The notes beneath the pieces were generated by a model, which saw only the letters and a program-made list of their open reading frames with translations, did not search any database and was not told where the DNA came from. A stretch of 36,811 nt of DNA, taken from Pseudomonadota bacterium (GTDB taxonomy: Bacteria; CALINM01). The stretch is taken from positions 1 through 36,811 of the forward strand of contig JAOABK010000017.1 of assembly GCA_026418415.1 (NCBI GenBank), given 5' to 3'. Shown one piece after another: positions 707 to 12,797 of this stretch (positions are counted from its first letter, which is position 1; every line of letters begins with the position of its first letter). A program made the position numbers and the translations under genes.

Positions 707-2051
707 ACCAAAGAGGCTACTTATAATTGCAGGTTCAGATCCTACTGCAGGGGCTGGTGTGCAGGCTGATTTGAAAACTGCTTCTGCTATTGGTGTTTAT
801 GGTTTAACAGTCATAACATCTATAACTGCCCAAAACACCAAGGGTGTACAGGGTGTATTTAATCTTTCTGATGAGTACGTAGAATCGCAATTGAATTCTA
901 TTTTAGAAGATGTTGAATTCGATGGGATAAAAATTGGCATGATTGGAGAGGATAGAATTGCTAAGGTTATAGAAAAATTTATTAAAAAGCAGAAAAAAAT
1001 AATAGTTTTGGATCCTGTGCTTGTAGCTCAAAGCGGTGGTATTCTTGCGAATAAAAAATATATTGAATCATTATTCCCCTTCTGCGATTTGATTACACCA
1101 AATGCCTTTGAGGCAGAGAAATTAGCAGGGATTAAAATTAAAACTCTGAATGATGTATTAAAGGCTGGTAAAGAATTGTTGAAAAAGGCAAAAAGGGTGC
1201 TAATAAAAGGTGGTGACTCAAAAATTGATTTTGATATTTATTTTGAGAGTAATCTAATTCATAAATTTCCTATAGAAAGGCTTGATACTAAAAACACTCA
1301 TGGTACTGGCTGTAGTCTTGCGACGGCAATAGCGTCATATTTAATTTTAGGTTTTGATTATGTCTCTGCCATATCTAAGGCAAGGGAGTTAATTTACAAA
1401 GCCCTGCAAAATGGTTTAGAGTTGGGTAGTCAGTTTGGTACGATTGACCAGTTTGCAACGTTGAAAGAAGATGCTAAAAGATATGAGATTATTGAGCATC
1501 TTAAGTTAGCTTTTGAAAGCATTAAAAATGAAAATATAGGTTATCTTGTGCCAGAGATTCAGACTAACTTTGTTTATGCCCTTCCCAATGCTAAGAATTA
1601 TAGAGATGTAGCTGGTTTCCCAGGAAGAATCATAAATTTTAAAGGTAATCTATGTGCTCTTTCATCACCAGAGTTTGGGGCATCTAAGCATGTAGCATCT
1701 CTTGTTTTATCTGCTAAAAGGTTTTATCCAGAGATTTCTTCAGCAATAGCCTTGAGATACATCCCTGAACTAATACCTTTACTTAAAAAGGCAGGCTTAA
1801 GAGTCTCTAATTTTGATAGAAAAAAGGAACCAAAGAATATTAAAGAAAAAGAAGGTAGTAGTCTTGATTGGGGTGTGAGTGAAGCATTAAAAAATACATC
1901 GGTAATGCCAGATATAATTTATGATTTAGGAGATGTAGGGAAAGAGCCAGTGATAAGGGTTTTTGGTAATAACCCATTCGAAGTTGTAGAAAAGGTAATA
2001 AAAATAAAAAAGATATGGGAAAGTAAAAATGTTAGAGTTTCAAAAGATTAA
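678..2051 (+). CDS. thiD: Bifunctional HMP/HMP-P kinase - thiamine-phosphate synthase (ThiD-ThiN fusion)
   Basis: The N-terminal half (about 8-265) is ThiD, which phosphorylates hydroxymethylpyrimidine and its monophosphate. It has the ribokinase-like start IAGSDPTAGAGVQADLKT, the DPVLVAQSGG segment and the catalytic THGTGCS loop. The C-terminal half (about 275-450) is a ThiN domain, with VAGFPGRI, FGASKH, a KKEP segment, KEGSSLDWG and DLGDVGKEP. ThiN is the thiamine-phosphate synthase used by many archaea and some bacteria in place of ThiE, and ThiD-ThiN fusions are well known. ATG 678 is preferred because AGGAG lies six bases upstream; TTG 675 and ATG 699 are alternatives. It overlaps thiF by 29 bases and the next gene by 23. 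Confidence 0.93.
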   Translation: MNLKKKGMNRPKRLLIIAGSDPTAGAGVQADLKTASAIGVYGLTVITSITAQNTKGVQGVFNLSDEYVESQLNSILEDVEFDGIKIGMIGEDRIAKVIEKFIKKQKKIIVLDPVLVAQSGGILANKKYIESLFPFCDLITPNAFEAEKLAGIKIKTLNDVLKAGKELLKKAKRVLIKGGDSKIDFDIYFESNLIHKFPIERLDTKNTHGTGCSLATAIASYLILGFDYVSAISKARELIYKALQNGLELGSQFGTIDQFATLKEDAKRYEIIEHLKLAFESIKNENIGYLVPEIQTNFVYALPNAKNYRDVAGFPGRIINFKGNLCALSSPEFGASKHVASLVLSAKRFYPEISSAIALRYIPELIPLLKKAGLRVSNFDRKKEPKNIKEKEGSSLDWGVSEALKNTSVMPDIIYDLGDVGKEPVIRVFGNNPFEVVEKVIKIKKIWESKNVRVSKD

Positions 2052-3351
2052 AGAGTTATCTGAAAAAAAGTCTGAATTTGATAAAGGGAGATTTGATGAG
2101 ATAATTCATAAATCGATCTCTTTTGAAGAATTAAGTCTTGATGAAATTTCTTTTCTCTTAGGAATAGAAGATAGGGATGTAGTTTCTGATTTGTGTAAAT
2201 GGGCTTTTGAAATTAAGAGGCTCGTTTTTGGTGATAGAATTGTCCTTTTTGCTCCACTCTATCTTTCAAATGAATGCTCTAATAAATGTTTGTATTGTGG
2301 CTTTCAAAGTGGTAATGAGTATGAAGTTAGAAAAACATTAAGTGTGGAAGAAGCGGTTAATGAGGCAAAATTCCTTACAAAGCGAGGCTTTAGAAGGACA
2401 TTGCTTGTAACTGCTGAAAACAAAAAAATATGTGGGGTTGATTATATCACTAAAATTGTAAAGGCGCTTTATGATGAAACTGATATGAATATTTTACATC
2501 TAAATTCTGCACCGATGGAGGTTGATGAATTAAGGCAAATTCGTGAGATTGGCGTGGGGGTTTTTCAGGTATTTCAAGAAACCTATCATGAAGAGACTTA
2601 CAGAAAATACCATGTGTCAGGAAAGAAAAAGGATTTTTACTATAGGTTGACCTGCATGGATAGAGCACTTACCGCTGGTTTCAAAGACGTTGGTATTGGC
2701 TGTCTATTAGGCCTTTATGATTATCGCTTTGATGTCCTTGCAACTATAGAACACGCGAAATATTTGAAAAAAAATTATGGAACCTATCCCCATACAATTT
2801 CAGTTCCAAGGTTAAGATATGCAAAGGGAGCTTTGGTAGAAAATCCGCCATATCCAGTAGATGATACAACCTTTAAAAAGATAGTTGCAGTTTACAGATT
2901 GGCGGTTCCCACTTCTGGTATTGTAATATCAACGAGGGAACCAGCTTTATTAAGAGATGAAATTTTAGAGTGTGGTGCTTCTCAAATAAGCGCAGAATCC
3001 TCAACCGCTCCAGGTGGGTATACTGGCAAGGTTTTAAACGAAGAAGGAGCACAGTTTACACTTAATGATACACGTAGTTTAGAGGATGTTATTATATCGA
3101 TTCTTGAGAAAAATATGTTGCCCAGTTTTTGTACTTCCTGTTATAGAAAGGGTAGAGAAGGTGGAGTTTTCCATGATCTTGCTATAAAGGGACATATTAA
3201 AGATTTTTGCGAAGAGAATGCTATTAACACCTTCTTAGAATATATTAAAAATCTTGAGGATACTGCAAAGAAGGAGAGAATGTTAGAACTTTTTGATCGG
3301 ATTTATAAGAATAATCAGGCTAAGGAGAAGATGGTTTGCGTGTTAAAGTAA
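2029..3351 (+). CDS. thiH: Radical SAM tyrosine lyase, ThiH/HydG family (2-iminoacetate synthase in thiamine operon)
   Basis: In the thi context this should cleave tyrosine to dehydroglycine and p-cresol for the thiazole ring. The radical SAM cluster motif CX3CX2C is at C83, C87 and C90. The body strongly resembles the ThiH/HydG family: FQETYHEETY, MDRALTAGF, DVGIGCLLGLYDYRFDVL, PHTISVPRLR, ISTREP. The C-terminus is unusual for a thi gene. SFCTSCYRKGREG plus a later Cys gives C368-X2-C371-X22-C394, the spacing of the second iron-sulfur cluster that distinguishes HydG (hydrogenase maturase) from classical ThiH. Length (440 aa) lies between ThiH (about 370) and HydG (about 470). Position between thiD and thiS argues for a thiamine role. 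ATG 2029 overlaps thiD; the stop overlaps thiS by 16 bases. Confidence 0.87.
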   Translation: MLEFQKIKELSEKKSEFDKGRFDEIIHKSISFEELSLDEISFLLGIEDRDVVSDLCKWAFEIKRLVFGDRIVLFAPLYLSNECSNKCLYCGFQSGNEYEVRKTLSVEEAVNEAKFLTKRGFRRTLLVTAENKKICGVDYITKIVKALYDETDMNILHLNSAPMEVDELRQIREIGVGVFQVFQETYHEETYRKYHVSGKKKDFYYRLTCMDRALTAGFKDVGIGCLLGLYDYRFDVLATIEHAKYLKKNYGTYPHTISVPRLRYAKGALVENPPYPVDDTTFKKIVAVYRLAVPTSGIVISTREPALLRDEILECGASQISAESSTAPGGYTGKVLNEEGAQFTLNDTRSLEDVIISILEKNMLPSFCTSCYRKGREGGVFHDLAIKGHIKDFCEENAINTFLEYIKNLEDTAKKERMLELFDRIYKNNQAKEKMVCVLK

Positions 3352-3536
3352 ATGGTAAAGAATATGAATTGCCAGAAAATCTCACAGTTTTGCAAATGCT
3401 CAATTTTTTTAAAATAAATCATAATTTTGTAGCAGTGGAACGTAATAAGGAAATAGTCTCAAGAAAGGATTGGGAGAATGTGAAGGTTTGTGACGGAGAT
3501 GTGTTTGAAATTGTTACCTTTGTAGGTGGTGGTTAA
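3336..3536 (+). CDS. thiS: Sulfur carrier protein ThiS
   Basis: Small ubiquitin-fold protein of 66 residues whose C-terminal glycine is adenylated by ThiF and converted to a thiocarboxylate, the sulfur donor to ThiG. It shows the family pattern MRVKVNGKEYELPENLTVLQML near the start and ends in FVGGG, one glycine more than the usual GG tail. The start is TTG, chosen because AAGGAG lies eight bases upstream and the sequence from there matches the expected N-terminus exactly. The gene begins inside the end of thiH, so translation is probably coupled. Confidence 0.92.
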   Translation: MRVKVNGKEYELPENLTVLQMLNFFKINHNFVAVERNKEIVSRKDWENVKVCDGDVFEIVTFVGGG

Positions 3537-3557: not shown

Positions 3558-4331
3558 ATGAGTGAAGATTATCTTGTTATTGGAGACAAAAAATTTAAAT
3601 CCAGATTATTTGTGGGGACAGGTAAATACTCTACACCAGAATTAATGCTTGGTGCAATTGAGGCATCAGGTGCAGAAGTTGTTACTGTTGCATTAAGGCG
3701 GATGAATATTGAAGGACAACAAAGAACAATCCTTGATTACTTGGCAGAAATTAACTGTACCATATTACCTAATACAGCAGGTTGTTACACAGCAGAAGAG
3801 GCTATAAGAACAGCAAGGCTTGCAAGGGAGTTGGGCTTGAGCAATATGGTCAAATTAGAGGTAATAGGCGATCAAAAAACGCTTTTTCCAGATAACGAGG
3901 CCTTACTTGAGGCTGCAAGGGTCCTTGTCAAAGAAGGCTTTATTGTTCTGCCCTATACTAATGATGATCCAGTTATGGCAAAAAAATTAGAGGATATTGG
4001 TTGTGCGGCGGTAATGCCTTTGGGGGCGCCGATTGGTTCTGGGCTTGGTATTAGAAACCCCTATAATATAAGGATTATCCTTGAAACTGTTAGGGTCCCA
4101 GTTATAGTAGATGCAGGGGTTGGTACCGCTTCTGATGCCTCTTTCGCTATGGAGCTTGGTTGTGCGGGTGTTTTAATGAATACAGGTATAGCGGGAGCAA
4201 AGGATCCTATTAAAATGGCAAAGGCAATGAGGTTAGCGGTTGAGGCGGGAAGACTTGCCTATTTAGCTGGTCGAATCCCCAAAAAACTTTATGCTTCTGC
4301 CTCAAGTCCTATGGATAATCTTATAGAGTAG
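3558..4331 (+). CDS. thiG: Thiazole synthase ThiG
   Basis: Condenses 1-deoxyxylulose 5-phosphate, dehydroglycine and ThiS thiocarboxylate into the thiazole phosphate carboxylate. It is a TIM-barrel of 257 residues, the usual family length. Visible family motifs are [36 protein letters not shown], the Schiff-base lysine segment [19 protein letters not shown] and [13 protein letters not shown] good ribosome site (GGGAGG) precedes ATG 3558. It lies directly after thiS, as in many thi operons. Confidence 0.96.
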
Positions 4332-4341
4332 GAGAAAAAAT

Positions 4342-4941
4342 TTGCTTCCAAGGATTTGCATTGTAACTGATAGAAAGTTAGTGGGAGATGGGTTTTTAGT
4401 TACAATGCAAAAATTAATTGAGAATGGTTTTAATTTCATACAGTTAAGAGAAAAGGATTTAAATGCCAAAGAACTATATTTATTAGCAAAAAAAATAATA
4501 GACTTAAGGGGAGATAAAGTTAGGCTTGTTATTAATGATAGGGTTGATGTAGCGTATGTGGTTGGAGCAACGGGTGTGCATTTAGGGGCAAATAGCCTTC
4601 CATCTTGTATTGTGAAAGAAAAATTTGAAGGGTTAATAGTAGGAATTTCAGTCCACAGTAAAGAAGAGTTAGAAAAAAATAGCGGTTATGACTATGTTTT
4701 TTTTGGGAATGTATTTGAGACTGATTGTAAGCCAGGTATTACTGGCAAAGGTCTGGATTTATTAAAAAACATAGTTGAAATGACAGATAAGCCTGTTTAT
4801 GCAATAGGAGGAATCACCCCTGATAATGTTTTAGAGGTTCTTAGAACAGGTGTCTATGGTGTGGCTGTGAGAAGTTTGGCTTTTAAGGGGTTAGATGAAA
4901 TGTTGAGGTTAAGAAAACTTATTGGAGAATATTATGGATAA
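4342..4941 (+). CDS. thiE/tenI: ThiE/TenI family protein; probably TenI-type thiazole tautomerase rather than thiamine-phosphate synthase
   Basis: A 199-residue TIM-barrel with QLREKDL, INDRVDVA, GVHLG and AIGGITPDN, shared by thiamine-phosphate synthase ThiE and thiazole tautomerase TenI. Details lean to TenI. After GVHLG the sequence is ANSLP, so the second Mg-binding Asp of ThiE (GQxD; Asp112 in B. subtilis from memory) is replaced by S85. The phosphate-loop region reads GNVFETDCKPG, like GHVFPTDCKKG of B. subtilis TenI and unlike GPxFPTxTK of ThiE. The length also fits TenI. However, the TenI catalytic His is Asn123 here. A coupling enzyme is already present as the ThiN domain. The start is TTG with GGAG upstream. 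Automatic pipelines would probably call this thiE. Confidence 0.85.
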   Translation: MLPRICIVTDRKLVGDGFLVTMQKLIENGFNFIQLREKDLNAKELYLLAKKIIDLRGDKVRLVINDRVDVAYVVGATGVHLGANSLPSCIVKEKFEGLIVGISVHSKEELEKNSGYDYVFFGNVFETDCKPGITGKGLDLLKNIVEMTDKPVYAIGGITPDNVLEVLRTGVYGVAVRSLAFKGLDEMLRLRKLIGEYYG

Positions 4942-6202
4942 AAAAGATGTGAGTTATTTAAAGAAAATTGCGAAGATAGAAGAGATTAGTTATGAGAACC
5001 TAATACAGGGTATTAATGAGGGCAAGATAGTCTTTTTTAAAAACAAAAAAAGAGATACTAAACCTATGGCGGTTGGAAAGGATTTAACAGTAAAGATAAA
5101 TGCCAACATTGGTACATCAATGAAATGTAATGATATTTCTTTGGAGTTAAAAAAGGTAAAAGTCTGTGAAGAGGCTGGTGCAGATGCGATTATGGACCTT
5201 TCAACAGGGGGTGATATTGATAAAATTAGAAAAGAAATTTTAAATACTACCAACCTACCTTTAGGTACTGTTCCCATATACGAAGTGGCTTATGATATTA
5301 TGGTGAAGAAGAAAAAGGGGATAGAAAAACTTGATTTTTCCCATTTCATAGAAGTGATGGAAAAACAGGCGGAACAGGGTGTAGATTTTATGACCATCCA
5401 TTGTGGTATAACTCTAAATTCACTTAAGAGATTGGAAAGAAGCAAAAGGGTTATGGGGGTTGTGTCAAGAGGGGGCGCATTACTTGTAGAATGGATGAAA
5501 AAAAATAAAAAAGAAAATCCTCTATATGAAAACTTTCAAGAAATTTTAAAAGTTGCGAAGAAATTTAATATAGTGATTAGTCTGGGAGATGGCTTAAGAC
5601 CTGGCTCAACTCTCGATGCTACAGATGGTCCACAGATTGAGGAGCTGATAACATTGGGTGAGCTTGTAATAGAATGCAGGAAAGCAGGTGTTCAGGTGAT
5701 TGTCGAAGGACCAGGGCATGTACCAATTAACCAAATAGAGACAAATATAAAACTACAAAAAGCTCTTTGCCATGAATCACCTTTTTATGTTCTTGGTCCC
5801 CTTGCAACAGATATTGGTGCTGGTTATGATCATATAGTGTCTGCCATTGGTGGAGCTTGGGCAGCTTACTTTGGCGCAGATTTTCTTTGTTATGTTACAC
5901 CTGCTGAGCATTTGCATTTGCCAAATATTGAAGATGTGAGAATGGGAGTGATTGCATCAAAGATTGCAGCCCATTGCGCTGATCTTGCAAGGGGTAAGAA
6001 GAGGGCATGGGAATTGGAAAGAAGGATGTCTGAAAGCAGATTCAAACTGAACTGGGAGGGACAGATTCAAAATGCCCTTGATTCTTATAGTGTAAAGAAA
6101 ATTGTTGAAAGAGAAAAACAAAGGAAAGAAGAGCCTTGTTCTATGTGTGGGGATTTGTGTTCCATAAAAACATCTGAAAGAAGTTTAAAAAAGGTGAAAT
6201 AG
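4934..6202 (+). CDS. thiC: Phosphomethylpyrimidine synthase ThiC
   Basis: Radical SAM-like enzyme that rearranges aminoimidazole ribotide into HMP phosphate. Length is 422 residues, the short form common in anaerobes and archaea. Typical segments are KINANIGTS, GADAIMDLSTGGD, VDFMTIHCGI, SRGGALLVEWM, SLGDGLRPGS, VEGPGHVPINQIE and YVTPAEHLHLP. The C-terminal cluster motif is CSMCGDLC (CX2CX3C), as in this subgroup. ATG 4934 is preferred to TTG 4922 because GGAG at 4924-4927 is correctly placed for it. It overlaps the preceding gene by eight bases and closes the visible thiamine pathway genes. Confidence 0.95.
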   Translation: MDKKDVSYLKKIAKIEEISYENLIQGINEGKIVFFKNKKRDTKPMAVGKDLTVKINANIGTSMKCNDISLELKKVKVCEEAGADAIMDLSTGGDIDKIRKEILNTTNLPLGTVPIYEVAYDIMVKKKKGIEKLDFSHFIEVMEKQAEQGVDFMTIHCGITLNSLKRLERSKRVMGVVSRGGALLVEWMKKNKKENPLYENFQEILKVAKKFNIVISLGDGLRPGSTLDATDGPQIEELITLGELVIECRKAGVQVIVEGPGHVPINQIETNIKLQKALCHESPFYVLGPLATDIGAGYDHIVSAIGGAWAAYFGADFLCYVTPAEHLHLPNIEDVRMGVIASKIAAHCADLARGKKRAWELERRMSESRFKLNWEGQIQNALDSYSVKKIVEREKQRKEEPCSMCGDLCSIKTSERSLKKVK

Positions 6203-8625: not shown

Positions 8626-9672
<1,047 letters not shown>

Positions 9673-9677
9673 AATAA

Positions 9678-10493
9678 ATGTTTGAGAAAAGACTAAAAAA
9701 AACATTACTGGCCCTTTTATTTATCTATATTTCTGCTAATGCTCTTTATGTAGCTAAACCTGCTATTTTTAATGAGGGCAGTTTTTCTGTAAAAATTATT
9801 CTTTTCCCAACATTTGCTATGAGGACTATTTTTAATAAAACCCTCGAAGTATTTAATACTATTATGAATTCAAAAAACATTCTTAAGGAAAATGAGGAAT
9901 TAAAAAAAAGACTGGATTCTCTGCAACTGGAAAATATGTTTTTGAAAAGGGAATTAGAGAATTTTCAGCGTTTGAATAATGTCGAAAATTATGCAAAAAA
10001 ATTCCCCTTTTCAGTGGAAATTTCTAAAATTGTGGGAAGAAATCCCAAGTTATGGCATCAATATTTAATAATAGATGGGGGAAAGAATAAATATTTCACT
10101 CCTGGTATGCCAGTTGTTACAAAAGACGGTTTAATAGGTAAAATAGTTGAAGTTTATGACAGTTATTCAAAAGTCTTACTCCTAATTGATCCTGAATTCT
10201 CTGTAGATGTAAGGGGAGAAAAGTCTGGTGTCCTTGCACTTTGTTCTGGTATAGGAACCTCGGTTTTAAAAATAAACTATGTACCCAAATTTGAAGAATT
10301 AGTACTTGGTGAGACACTTGTAACTTCAGGGCTTGATGGTTCTTTCCCTGAAGGGATCCCAGTAGGTTATGTAATAGAGATAAATAAACCCTTTGGAGAC
10401 TACTTTCTTGATGCCTATGTAGTGCCTGTTGTAGATATTTTAAAAATAAAAGAAGTGATAGTAATAAGGGCTTTTCATAAGAAAATAAAATGA
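9678..10493 (+). CDS. mreC: Rod shape-determining protein MreC
   Basis: Periplasmic scaffold of the elongasome. It has a short cytoplasmic start, one membrane segment (about 8-26), a coiled coil (about 65-100, rich in heptad L/E/K: KENEELKKRLDSLQLENM), then the beta-domain with the typical PVVTKDGLIGKIVEV and GLDGSFPEGIPVGYV segments. It lies five bases after mreB and overlaps mreD by four bases (ATGA). Length of 271 is normal. Confidence 0.95.
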   Translation: MFEKRLKKTLLALLFIYISANALYVAKPAIFNEGSFSVKIILFPTFAMRTIFNKTLEVFNTIMNSKNILKENEELKKRLDSLQLENMFLKRELENFQRLNNVENYAKKFPFSVEISKIVGRNPKLWHQYLIIDGGKNKYFTPGMPVVTKDGLIGKIVEVYDSYSKVLLLIDPEFSVDVRGEKSGVLALCSGIGTSVLKINYVPKFEELVLGETLVTSGLDGSFPEGIPVGYVIEINKPFGDYFLDAYVVPVVDILKIKEVIVIRAFHKKIK

Positions 10494-10984
10494 TTTTAAA
10501 TTTATCAGTGATTTTTTTCTTGTTCGCTTTGTCCTATGGGGCTAATTATTATTTTGCACCACTCTATTTTCAAATTGATATAACAGTACCTATATTAATT
10601 TTTTTTGCAAAGGACCTCAAGTTTTTCAAATTTTTCTTTATCGTTTTCTTTGTAATTTTTATGAATGCATTATTTGAGAGATTTGCATTTACACTGGCAA
10701 TTTACATCTTAGTCTTTTCTCTATTAATATTTGTAAGCAAAAAAAATTTCAATATAATATCAATAAGATATATTTTTTTAGCCTCTTTAACTTACATGGC
10801 AAATAAGTATCTTCTGGTTTATTTGATGTATTACAAAAGGTTATTTTTTAATGGTGTAGTATTTTTAAACATTGTTTTTGATGTATTGATAAATCTGGCT
10901 TTTTCTTTTATAGTTTTTAGTTTGCTTGAAAAAGTAATTTTTGAGTTGAGGAAGAAGTGTGAAAAAGCTTTATGTAGTTCTTGA
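10490..10984 (+). CDS. mreD: Rod shape-determining protein MreD
   Basis: Hydrophobic protein of 164 residues with about five membrane spans and very few charged residues until the C-terminal tail. Sequence conservation in MreD is low. The assignment rests on hydropathy, length, and its place between mreC and mrdA, all tightly overlapped (4 bases with mreC, 26 with the next gene). Its Phe/Ile-rich composition is normal for this family in AT-rich genomes. Confidence 0.88.
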   Translation: MILNLSVIFFLFALSYGANYYFAPLYFQIDITVPILIFFAKDLKFFKFFFIVFFVIFMNALFERFAFTLAIYILVFSLLIFVSKKNFNIISIRYIFLASLTYMANKYLLVYLMYYKRLFFNGVVFLNIVFDVLINLAFSFIVFSLLEKVIFELRKKCEKALCSS

Positions 10985-12797
10985 TTCAATACCCTATTTG
11001 GAGAAAAGACTCTCACTTTTTTTAAAAGTATTTAGTGTTTTGGTTCTGCTACTTATTGGGTACTATTGGTTATTACAAATTGTTAGGCATGCCTATTATA
11101 CAGAGTTGTCTGAAAAAAGTAGGATTCGTAATATAAAAATAGTAGCACCAAGGGGTGTAATAAGAGACAGAAATGGAGTAATTATTGCATCGAGCTCTCC
11201 AAGCTTTGTTTTAGAAATTGTTAGAGAGGAGGTAGAAAACAAGGATTTATTACTCAATGAGATCGCGAATATCCTAAAAAAAGATGTTTTGGAGTTAAAA
11301 AATTTATATGAGACTAAAGAGAGAGTTACGCCAAGATTTTATCCAATAATATTAATGGAAAATCTCTCGAGAGAAGAAGTGGTAAAAATAGAAGCCTATA
11401 AGTGGAAACTTAAGGGGGCTAAAATAAGCTATAGATCTGAGAGAAGTTATCCCTTTAATGATTATTGTTCACATTTGATTGGTTATGTATCTCAGATAAC
11501 AAAAGAAGATATTGAAAGGTTGAAAAACAAAATATATGGAGCAAAAATCGGCAAGACAGGCATTGAAAGTATATTCGAAGATTATTTAAAGGGATTTGAT
11601 GGCGTTACCAAAGTAGAAGTGGACGCCTATGGAAGAAAACAAAAAGTTTTATATAGATTGGATCCAGTTTCGGGTGGGTCAATAAAATTAACCATAGATT
11701 GGGAATTACAAGAGATTGCAGAAAAATCTTTGGGTGATAAAAATGGAGCGGTAGTTGCTATCTCAACAAAAACAGGAGAAGTGCTTGCTTTAGTTAGCCA
11801 TCCAAACTTTGATCCCAATCTTTTTGTTAAGGGATTGGATAAAGATGAATGGAAGAAAATTAATAATAATCCCTTTCATCCTTTACAAAATAAGGCAATT
11901 CAAGGCGCCTATCCACCTGGTTCAACTTTTAAGATTATTACTGCCATAGCTGGATTAGAGGAGGGTGTTATTAATGAAGACACAGCTTTTTATTGCTATG
12001 GAAAAAAAAGATTGGGTAATAGAGATTTCAGATGTTGGAAGGATGGAGGTCATGGGCGAGTAAATATTCACAAAGCCATGGTTGAGTCATGTGATGTATT
12101 TTTTTATGAAGTTTCGCTAAAGTTAGGGCCTGATAAAATTGCCCATTATGCAAGGTTGTTTGGTTTTGGTGAAAAGACATCAATAGGACTGCCCGGAGAG
12201 CTTTCTGGAAATGTACCGGACTCCCAATGGAAAAAGAAAAGGTATAAACAGATATGGTATGATGGAGATACTCTTCCTTACGGGATTGGACAGGGTTACT
12301 TAACTGTTACTCCACTGCAACTTGCTCTTTCATACGCAGCTTTTGCTAATGGCGGGAGTCTTTTTAAACCAATTATTGTAAAAGAGATAGAAACAAATGA
12401 TGGTAAAATTATCAAAGAACAAATACCAAGCGTAAGAAAACATGTAAATTTAAATCCCAAAACTATTGAAATAATAAGAAAGGCGTTAATTGGTGTGGTT
12501 AATGAGGCTGGAGGAACAGGCTATGCATCAAGGTTAAATGGTATTATAGTTGCGGGTAAAACAGGAACGGCACAGGTTAGGTCCTTTAAGGAAAGGCGAA
12601 AACTATCGGGCTTTCATAATGACCATGCATGGTTTGTAGGATTTGCGCCCGCTTATGATCCAGAAATTGTAGTATGTGCCTTTGTTATGCATGGTGGTCA
12701 TGGTGGAGGTGTTGCAGCACCTATTGTTAAAGATGTAATAGAAAAATATTATTTAAAAAAGAAGGTTGAGTATGCTAAGGCAAGTGAAAACAAATAA
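10959..12797 (+). CDS. mrdA: Penicillin-binding protein 2, peptidoglycan transpeptidase
   Basis: Class B PBP that cross-links side-wall peptidoglycan together with RodA. There is one N-terminal membrane segment (about 20-42), a dimerisation domain with RGVIRDRNGVIIASS, and a transpeptidase domain with all three active-site motifs: S322-x-x-K325 (PPGSTFK), S377-C-D379 and K534-T-G. Length of 612 is typical of MrdA. The start is GTG 10959, preceded by GAGGAAG and placed inside the end of mreD. It overlaps rodA. Confidence 0.96.
   Translation: MKKLYVVLDSIPYLEKRLSLFLKVFSVLVLLLIGYYWLLQIVRHAYYTELSEKSRIRNIKIVAPRGVIRDRNGVIIASSSPSFVLEIVREEVENKDLLLNEIANILKKDVLELKNLYETKERVTPRFYPIILMENLSREEVVKIEAYKWKLKGAKISYRSERSYPFNDYCSHLIGYVSQITKEDIERLKNKIYGAKIGKTGIESIFEDYLKGFDGVTKVEVDAYGRKQKVLYRLDPVSGGSIKLTIDWELQEIAEKSLGDKNGAVVAISTKTGEVLALVSHPNFDPNLFVKGLDKDEWKKINNNPFHPLQNKAIQGAYPPGSTFKIITAIAGLEEGVINEDTAFYCYGKKRLGNRDFRCWKDGGHGRVNIHKAMVESCDVFFYEVSLKLGPDKIAHYARLFGFGEKTSIGLPGELSGNVPDSQWKKKRYKQIWYDGDTLPYGIGQGYLTVTPLQLALSYAAFANGGSLFKPIIVKEIETNDGKIIKEQIPSVRKHVNLNPKTIEIIRKALIGVVNEAGGTGYASRLNGIIVAGKTGTAQVRSFKERRKLSGFHNDHAWFVGFAPAYDPEIVVCAFVMHGGHGGGVAAPIVKDVIEKYYLKKKVEYAKASENK

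Follow-up and report, generated by a model that had tools for sequence, protein, structure and literature searches.

What does a radical SAM tyrosine lyase with the second iron-sulfur cluster motif of HydG do in a thiamine operon? The question is raised by a single open frame (positions 2029–3351, 440 amino acids, ATG start) in the window, the whole 36,811-nucleotide stretch of DNA that was analysed. The original prediction regarded its product as a ThiH and offered three readings of it: an evolutionary intermediate, a bifunctional lyase, or a ThiH that had retained the cluster for another purpose. The clade that holds this protein is here called HX and is represented by 40 genomes, loci and rows.

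The window operon and its tyrosine lyase

The window contains a thiamine cluster in the order thiF, thiDN, HX, thiS, thiG, thiE/tenI-like and thiC, with the following features.

20–706, + strand: thiF, ThiS adenylyltransferase (NF006395, 305.8 bits, cut-off 159)
675–2051, + strand: thiD-thiN fusion (PF08543, PF10120)
2029–3351, + strand: HX, HydG-type radical SAM tyrosine lyase in the place of ThiH (TIGR03955; PDB matches, HydG first; tree)
2275–2298, + strand: radical-SAM motif C83-X3-C87-X2-C90 (translation; invariant in alignment A1)
2497–2499, + strand: codon of H157, His in 40/40 HX rows (L047 included) and Asn in 79/79 HydG rows (alignment)
2503–2505, + strand: codon of N159, aligned with TcThiH Glu158 (alignment)
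2791–2793, + strand: codon of H255, aligned with the HydG dangler-iron histidine (PHT motif; 4wcx, 4rtb; alignments)
3130–3210, + strand: second-cluster motif C368-X2-C371-X22-C394 (translation, alignment)
3336–3536, + strand: thiS, sulfur carrier ending in GGG (TIGR01683, 74 bits, cut-off 37.45)
3558–4331, + strand: thiG, thiazole synthase (PF05690, 382 bits)
4342–4941, + strand: thiE/tenI-like (PF02581, 163 bits; TIGR00693, 137.8 bits, below its cut-off of 145.1)
4922–6202, + strand: thiC (TIGR00190, 575 bits, cut-off 460)

As listed, the HX frame shares 23 bases with thiD-thiN and 16 with thiS. Of the two neighbours originally named, thiS lies downstream as described, and the upstream thiD is refined to a ThiD-ThiN fusion. 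No Rfam family matched the window at gathering scores; with 19 nt of contig ahead of thiF, an upstream riboswitch would be out of reach.

Judged by family score, residues and tree, HX belongs with HydG, and it stands where ThiH should be; the earlier label of ThiH is thus not upheld. The window protein scores 359.8 bits against TIGR03955, the NCBI HydG model (cut-off 312.15), and 323.2 bits against the ThiH model TIGR02351, under the cut-off of 380. In a profile search, HX-clade matches exceed the TIGR03955 cut-off in 43 of 43 handles. With phmmer, the protein aligns through the C-terminal domain with the HydG structures 4rtb (E 1e-107) and 4wcx (E 5e-104), and thus end to end with HydG, whereas the alignment with ThiH 7pd1 reaches residue 360 only (E 3e-51). 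An AlphaFold model (pLDDT 92.7) superposes on 4wcx with a Z score of 52.7 over 433 residues and 39% identity, compared with 30% identity to 7pd1. The radical SAM relatives NosL and HydE share the fold (Z 41.7 and 36.2, respectively) but act on other substrates and score far lower by sequence. The score, the tree and the full C-terminal alignment rule out a classical ThiH in which a CxxC motif arose by chance.

In agreement with the original prediction, C368-X2-C371-X22-C394 is present within SFCTSCYRKGREG at exactly the HydG spacing. All 39 readable HX proteins have the same exact CX2CX22C motif, as do 76 of 79 HydG rows but none of 23 ThiH rows; the latter bears out the statement that ThiH lacks it. 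H255 and S366 are retained with the three Cys residues in all 39 readable HX rows, so that the second site, made up of the three Cys residues and the His aligned with the dangler-iron ligand, is intact throughout. The HydG histidine that aligns with H255, which we take to be the ligand holding the dangler iron, is absent from the 23 ThiH rows. As had been proposed, this thi-operon enzyme therefore keeps both halves of HydG, with the HydG second-site residue set. For these residue statistics, merging of identical proteins and removal of L025 reduced the set from 165 to 140, and L047, which has an in-frame stop in its match, was left out.

HX nevertheless differs from HydG. Three positions separate the HX rows from the 79 HydG rows without exception, namely 157 (His/Asn), 178 (Val/Thr) and 299 (Val/Ile), and two more are mostly changed (R155I, T296A); all five sit at or beside barrel strands. 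The GxRDxxF-like tail of HydG is missing in the three proteins of the window's family. The shared features are the full-length fold, both cluster motifs, the dangler-iron His, Asn159, E130 and the C-terminal extension. With ThiH (TIGR02351; 7pd1, 7pd2), HX shares the place in the operon, the partners ThiG and ThiS, the conserved tyrosine-site residues T302, R303, R309, S321 and S324, TPP control, and being the sole dehydroglycine source found. Position 159, aligned with TcThiH Glu158, the partner of the tyrosine carboxylate, is Asn in the window protein, Asn or Glu among HydG rows and Glu in ThiH.

One way to account for the second site is as a structural relic: HydG would have been recruited for its first half, with the C-terminal domain folding around a cluster at which no chemistry occurs. 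Consistent with this reading, three HydG-like proteins kept outside the HX and HydG counts (L174, L175 and L176) have lost all three Cys residues and the His, and L174 is placed inside the HX clade. It carries Asn rather than His at 157 (read by eye), so His157 is not universal if L174 is a true HX member. Genome G357 has ThiG and L176, with no ThiH over the cut-off and no ThiO match; if L176 serves ThiG there, the task can be done without the second cluster. L174 and L175, however, need not serve ThiG, because G345 has a ThiO over the cut-off and G075 a split ThiO match below it. Moreover, 39/39 readable HX rows have kept both the dangler-iron His and the residues that surround the cluster in HydG, even though the 18 aligned rows outside the window's family are only 43–55% identical to the window protein, and a fold anchor would not require a dangler-iron His that the 23 ThiH rows lack. 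A relic is considered rather unlikely.

Position of HX relative to HydG and ThiH

HX and HydG group together against ThiH with a support of 100 in a 142-row tree and 100/100 in a more careful 63-row tree; the placement deep inside ordinary ThiH that would have spoken against the original prediction did not occur. Two rows are absent from the trees: L025, which is short, and L161, taken to be a broken HydG. Since the relatives are the best 80 of 499, the deeper HydG diversity is sampled more thinly than HX.

The tree sets disagree as to whether HX lies beside or inside HydG, and its position is undecided. This bears on the reading of HX as an evolutionary intermediate, in which HX and HydG share an ancestor that worked in thiamine synthesis, and the HydG of [FeFe]-hydrogenase maturation was derived from that ancestor. 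The 142-row tree unites the 79 HydG rows in a single clade (SH-aLRT 82), flanked by HX in two parts, and would fit such an origin, as would the fact that the outgroup, ThiH, is a thiamine enzyme. In contrast, the 63-row tree nests HX (96/94) within HydG next to Bacillota sequences (98/96), although an AU test does not reject HydG as a single clade with HX as its sister (p 0.388). The long ThiH branch makes the rooting weak, and the deep order shifted again on addition of six rows, four of which have lost or divergent C-termini, three of these being long-branched. A sister position is compatible with the data, and the intermediate of the original prediction is viewed as rather improbable.

Thiamine linkage and hydrogenase context

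The genes around HX point to thiamine synthesis. thiS or thiG lies beside HX in 36 of 40 loci, and among the best 80 of 499 relatives, taken from named genomes, 32 adjoin thi genes; ThiF was looked for within loci. A TPP riboswitch, always on the same strand, is found upstream in 32 of the 39 HX loci examined (none in the other 7), and in 24 of these 32 it ends less than 450 nt from the HX match. L040, a lone HX away from thi genes, has one that ends 39 nt before the match, and riboswitches are also present at L034 and L035, relatives of the window HX. HydG controls gave none (0/8 hyd-linked loci and 0/6 HydG-paralogue loci from HX genomes, 0/14 in total).

No ThiH-type match was detected in the 40 HX genomes, where HydG-model matches at E<=1e-15 are HX, HydG or HydE by our reading of score and place, and no ThiO exceeds the cut-off, with weak matches in 7. 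ThiO, a flavoprotein unrelated to HX, is a glycine oxidase that provides another route to dehydroglycine and has the supply role for ThiG that is proposed here for HX. Among 177 ThiG-bearing genomes of 386, 61 have a ThiH over the cut-off and 10 have HX, with no overlap (Fisher p 0.016). Most of the genomes are MAGs, and absences may partly reflect gaps. Given the lack of a ThiH-type match and of a ThiO over the cut-off, HX most likely replaces ThiH in anaerobic thiamine synthesis, and a thiamine role is very probable.

An ordinary HydG that lies by chance in a thi operon is thereby rendered extremely improbable: the NCBIfam name for HX is indeed HydG, but the thi linkage is conserved, the riboswitch is present, ThiH-type and above-cut-off ThiO matches are lacking, the clade has residues of its own, and the window's genome has a separate HydG. 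Misplacement or contamination was rejected too, as the congener L034 has the same operon and the window's genome has another HydG; in the family member L035 the operon is as in the window up to the end of its contig.

The intact second site would also suit a bifunctional lyase that feeds ThiG and, besides, produces the CO and cyanide of a hydrogenase or some other metal centre. The proposed search of the same genome for hydE, hydF and hydrogenase identified a HydG-HydE pair, HydF in split form, [NiFe]-hydrogenases and a single protein with PF02906, the C-terminal domain of [FeFe]-hydrogenase, which may be a regulator; in G386, HX is accompanied by no other HydG but by a HypC-HydE-like frame that is truncated at the end of its contig. 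Against such a dual function, 31 of 40 HX genomes have no PF02906 domain, and 28 of 40 have neither this domain, another HydG, nor a HydE or HydF over the cut-off (two of these, G228 and G386, have weaker HydE matches). In addition, a vitamin need fits the TPP riboswitch, the window's genome has its own HydG-HydE, and residues invariant in HydG are altered in HX. The bifunctional reading of the original prediction is therefore judged improbable for the clade. CO supply for [NiFe]-hydrogenase was likewise rejected as a general reason, because PF00374 (E<=1e-10) is missing from 11 of 40 HX genomes; in many others its only matches are weak and, by our reading of the scores, NuoD-like.

Proposed role of the second site

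On the observed genes, motif, residues, riboswitch control and lack of a ThiH-type match or above-cut-off ThiO, HX probably supplies dehydroglycine to thiamine synthesis as its dedicated task and carries a genuine second cluster. The third reading of the original prediction survives in part: another purpose fits best, but the enzyme is not a ThiH. For its chemistry, the hand-over to ThiG and the loss of CO and cyanide formation, we infer the following course. The first [4Fe-4S] cluster (C83, C87, C90) would cleave SAM, and the resulting 5'-deoxyadenosyl radical would attack L-tyrosine to yield p-cresol and dehydroglycine, as in ThiH and HydG. Dehydroglycine would then move down the barrel to ThiG, which would join it with DXP and ThiS-thiocarboxylate to form the thiazole. 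The C-terminal [4Fe-4S] site would cap the barrel, binding or gating the unstable dehydroglycine for hand-over with no cleavage to CO and cyanide. This gating role is a possibility that we hold with some doubt. In a more tentative version, dehydroglycine would be bound at the dangler iron as a metal-held imine, and ThiG would receive either dehydroglycine itself or a product formed at that site. Every residue known to us as needed for the second reaction of HydG is retained in HX, so HX may still form CO and cyanide.

To our knowledge, work on the second site of HydG concerns only its production of the Fe(CO)2CN unit of [FeFe]-hydrogenase, and we know of such an iron-sulfur-iron centre only from hydrogenase maturation. 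In the portions of the literature available to us, no description of HX was found. The NCBI HydG model labels HX proteins as [FeFe]-hydrogenase maturases, and thiamine reconstructions for the genomes that carry them are likely to list thiH as missing. The arrangement is shared by distant bacteria in which no [FeFe]-hydrogenase was found, and one named isolate, Moorella mulderi DSM 14980 (L079), carries the gene. In genomes where no [FeFe]-hydrogenase was found, strict conservation of the second site under thiamine control detaches it from the purpose known for it and raises the question of what a dangler iron does to dehydroglycine where CO and cyanide are unwanted. Swaps at 157, 178 and 299 could convert an enzyme that makes CO and cyanide into one that donates dehydroglycine, or vice versa. 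If the dangler-iron version of the role holds, the iron-sulfur-iron centre of hydrogenase maturation would take an active part in making the thiazole in organisms that lack [FeFe]-hydrogenase.

Assignment of HX to the HydG side

The open frame at 2029-3351 encodes a 440-residue protein whose translation contains C368-X2-C371-X22-C394, in agreement with the CX2CX22C second-cluster motif that the original prediction had described. In contrast, the proposed identity as ThiH did not hold: HX scores 323.2 bits with the NCBIfam ThiH model, below the cut-off of 380, and 359.8 bits with the HydG model, above the cut-off of 312.15. Among solved structures, its top matches are HydG 4rtb and 4wcx, with alignments that span the C-terminal domain, followed by ThiH 7pd1, for which the alignment ends at residue 360. 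The AlphaFold model of HX (pLDDT 92.7) superposes on HydG 4wcx over 433 residues (Z 52.7), as compared to 361 residues for ThiH 7pd1 (Z 47.9). Across the clade, HX proteins score 360-468 bits on NCBIfam TIGR03955 and pass its curated HydG cut-off (312 bits); they are therefore likely annotated as [FeFe]-hydrogenase maturases.

HX was also placed by phylogeny against both families. In a quick IQ-TREE tree of 142 rows, ThiH forms one clade (100), and HydG and HX together form another (100), in which all 79 HydG rows are grouped (82) and HX lies beside them, split into groups of 37 and 3 rows. A careful tree of 63 rows instead recovers HX as one clade (96/94), nested in HydG beside five Bacillota sequences (98/96). 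Forcing all HydG into a single clade lowers the likelihood by 4.0 log units (AU p 0.388). Adding six rows to the 63 joins HX and L174, a HydG/HX-like relative, in one clade (95/91) and again rearranges the deep branching. HX is thus a branch of the HydG side, either sister to HydG or nested within it.

Thiamine context and control

In the window, HX shares its strand with thiF, a thiD-thiN fusion, thiS, thiG, a thiE/tenI-like gene, and thiC. The ThiD-ThiN fusion (675-2051) co-occurs with the ThiE/TenI-like protein (4342-4941), which falls under the ThiE cut-off; thiamine phosphate synthase activity may reside in ThiN, with the ThiE/TenI-like protein as the tautomerase. In two other HX operons, a gene resembling lgt by eye is placed between thiG and thiE (L050:3442-4269 and L054:10602-11438).

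An alignment of five such proteins served as the query for a scan of genome contigs, and the best 80 of the 499 relatives found were kept. By tblastn labels, thi genes adjoin 32 of these 80, and three (L065, L067, L076) have neither a thi nor a hyd neighbour; of the other 45, 41 are in loci labelled with a hyd gene, and four (L095, L096, L098, L118) are in loci that lack such a label. The source records of the thi-linked relatives include Deltaproteobacteria, Nitrospirae/Nitrospiria, Moorella mulderi, and others. From the scan loci and sampled genomes, 40 different HX rows were drawn. Either thiS or thiG is seen at 36 of the 40 loci, thiF and thiDN precede a contig end at L035, and no thi neighbours are seen at L040, L067, and L076. 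Of 386 genomes sampled around that of the window, 11 have an HX (assigned from score, neighbours, and tree); the HX of G042 lacks a thi neighbour.

A TPP riboswitch above the Rfam gathering score is found in 31 of 38 HX loci (12/14, 10/12, and 9/12) and in L034 from the window's genus, a total of 32/39. All 32 are on the HX strand and upstream of HX; the distance from riboswitch end to HX match is <450 nt in 24, with the other eight further upstream. In L040 (G042), the riboswitch lies 39 nt upstream of HX even though HX sits away from thi genes. The seven negative loci are L046, L047, L063, L066, L076, L131, and L134: no riboswitch is found in L046, L047, L131, or L134 even at E<=1, and L066 and L076 have scant or zero upstream DNA. 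HydG control loci gave 0/8 and 0/6. Any such riboswitch of the window's operon would be out of sight, as the contig starts 19 nt before thiF.

Other sources of dehydroglycine were sought in the HX genomes with the HydG model, on which ThiH gives 184-206 bits. The search covered 43 handles, three pairs of which are the same genome, leaving 40 genomes; none has a ThiH-type match at E<=1e-15. The ThiH model, run on 11 of the 40, yielded none above its cut-off, and ThiO is above cut-off in 0/40, with weak matches in seven. ThiG is present in 177 of the 386 sampled genomes, and ThiH is above cut-off in 61, every one with ThiG. Among the 177 ThiG genomes, HX occurs in 10 and ThiH in 61, with an overlap of 0 (p 0.016). 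In G002, which has HX, the contig stops short of thiG.

The second site and the cavity

H255, the His of PHTISVPRLR, aligns with the histidine that holds the dangler iron in HydG, and is replaced by other letters in all 23 ThiH rows. H255, S366, C368, Y372, R376, G378, F381, C394, and N397 are >=97% conserved in HX and HydG alike, and C371 is kept in 39/39 HX rows and substituted in 3/79 HydG rows. Since the 18 aligned HX rows from outside the window's family are only 43-55% identical to the window's HX, this conservation indicates strong constraint.

In a comparison of 39 HX with 79 HydG rows, three positions are invariant within each group yet differ between the two: 157 (His in HX, Asn in HydG), 178 (Val in HX, Thr in HydG), and 299 (Val in HX, Ile in HydG). 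Position 382 has no letter common to both, HydG having Met or Leu and HX others, and two further positions are near-exceptionless: 155 (Ile in 36/39 HX, Arg in 79/79 HydG) and 296 (Ala in 31/39 HX, Thr in 79/79 HydG). In the predicted structure, 155, 157, and 159 share one strand and equal parity, 178 starts a strand, and 296 is just before the strand that contains 299. Position 159 is known to face the tyrosine, and the side chains of 157 and 155 should therefore point toward the cavity. The residue that binds the tyrosine carboxylate in TcThiH is Glu158, with Asn at that place in HydG (PMC9046217); at position 159, HX has Asn (Asn159), whereas both Asn and Glu occur among the HydG rows compared. 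In HydG, the second [4Fe-4S] cluster and dangling iron are at the barrel bottom, ~2.4 nm from the first cluster (PMC6212873). Dehydroglycine is cut into CO and cyanide, both of which bind the dangler iron (PMC11736057), and the C-terminal cluster is essential to hydrogenase maturation according to mutational work cited in PMC9431212.

In three HydG/HX-like relatives, L174:6604-7887 (G075), L175:6612-7883 (G345), and L176:5620-6975 (G357), the Cys of the second cluster have, by reading, all been lost along with the dangler-iron His, which is evidence that the second site can be lost. By reading, all three have Asn at 157, and an aconitase-like gene precedes two of them. No TPP riboswitch was found at these loci. 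ThiO is above cut-off in G345 and a split match under cut-off in G075, so L174 and L175 need not serve ThiG. G357 has ThiG, with ThiH not above cut-off and no ThiO match.

Hydrogenase maturation genes and the proposed role of HX

A same-genome search for hydE, hydF, and [FeFe] hydrogenase, as originally suggested, located maturation genes outside the window. The window's genome (2.03 Mb, 161 contigs) encodes a second HydG (477.6 bits) on another contig, with hydE and the beginning of hydF downstream of it; HydF matches are split over two contigs. The congener G001 has two more HydG besides the thi-operon one, and the family member G002 has one more. HX is therefore a paralogue kept alongside normal HydG in these genomes. 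The [FeFe]-hydrogenase domain PF02906 is present in 9/40 HX genomes, HydF above cut-off in 7/40 plus the split HydF of the window's genome, HydE above cut-off in 11/40 with weaker matches in three more, and a second HydG in 12/40, one a fragment. Taken together, 28/40 have HX alone, and in two of these, G228 and G386, HydE is matched under cut-off. [NiFe]-hydrogenase PF00374 is matched in 29/40 at E<=1e-10, many matches being weak and NuoD-like.

In L037, from the window's genus, a PF02906 protein (8803-11070) is placed between hydF and [NiFe]-hydrogenase genes and is likely a regulator, because it forms a fusion with a sigma-54 activator (PF00158) and a Fis-type HTH. In the window's genome and in G002, the sole PF02906 match has a frame of similar length (762 and 760, as compared to 767 in L037), and the match in the window's genome may itself be a regulator.

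In three HX genomes, HydE begins with a HypC domain at its N-terminus (PF01455, 47-56 bits against a cut-off of 28.5):

L181:6566-9742, HypC-HydE region of G410
L182:2291-10796, HypC-HydE region of G413
L183:21-3531, HypC-HydE region of G409

HydG follows HypC-HydE (552 and 571 bits; truncated by the contig end in L183), a HycI-type hydrogenase protease is nearby in all three, and [NiFe]-hydrogenase small, large, and cytochrome b genes precede the fusion in L182. No PF02906 match and no HydF above cut-off were found in these genomes. This arrangement suggests that a [NiFe]-hydrogenase gets its iron-CO/cyanide unit from HydG and HypC-HydE. No account of such a supply appears in titles and abstract starts among the matches listed, and its novelty possibly goes beyond the HX finding. 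By reading, HypC-HydE-like fusions are also seen at L184:8911-10227 (G017; start MCYSIPGRV), beside a membrane-type hydrogenase-like complex, and at L186:8978-9790 (G386; start MCLTIPAKV, truncated at the end of its contig), next to a [NiFe]-like set of cytoplasmic type. HX is the sole HydG-type match in G386.

The evidence for HX comprises sequence, context, control, and conservation, and the tyrosine-lyase step is taken from established work. Dehydroglycine from HX would pass to ThiG, an occupied second site would gate or hold it, and the altered cavity would suppress HydG's second reaction. At its best search depth, ProPhylo finds HydG in 180 genomes and HydF in 179 of them, and it treats ThiH as a homologue (PMC3226654). 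A 2004 delta-proteobacteria survey lists thiF, thiH, and thiM as missing in Geobacter (PMC545781), and according to PMC3543383 thiH is not identified in Geobacteraceae. No account of a thi-linked HydG was found in the literature searched (titles and abstract starts among the matches listed, and passages), which covers few subscription journals, and an earlier description may exist. The fold of HX is already known and its first reaction probably so; the new element would be the use of a HydG-type second site within a thiamine context.
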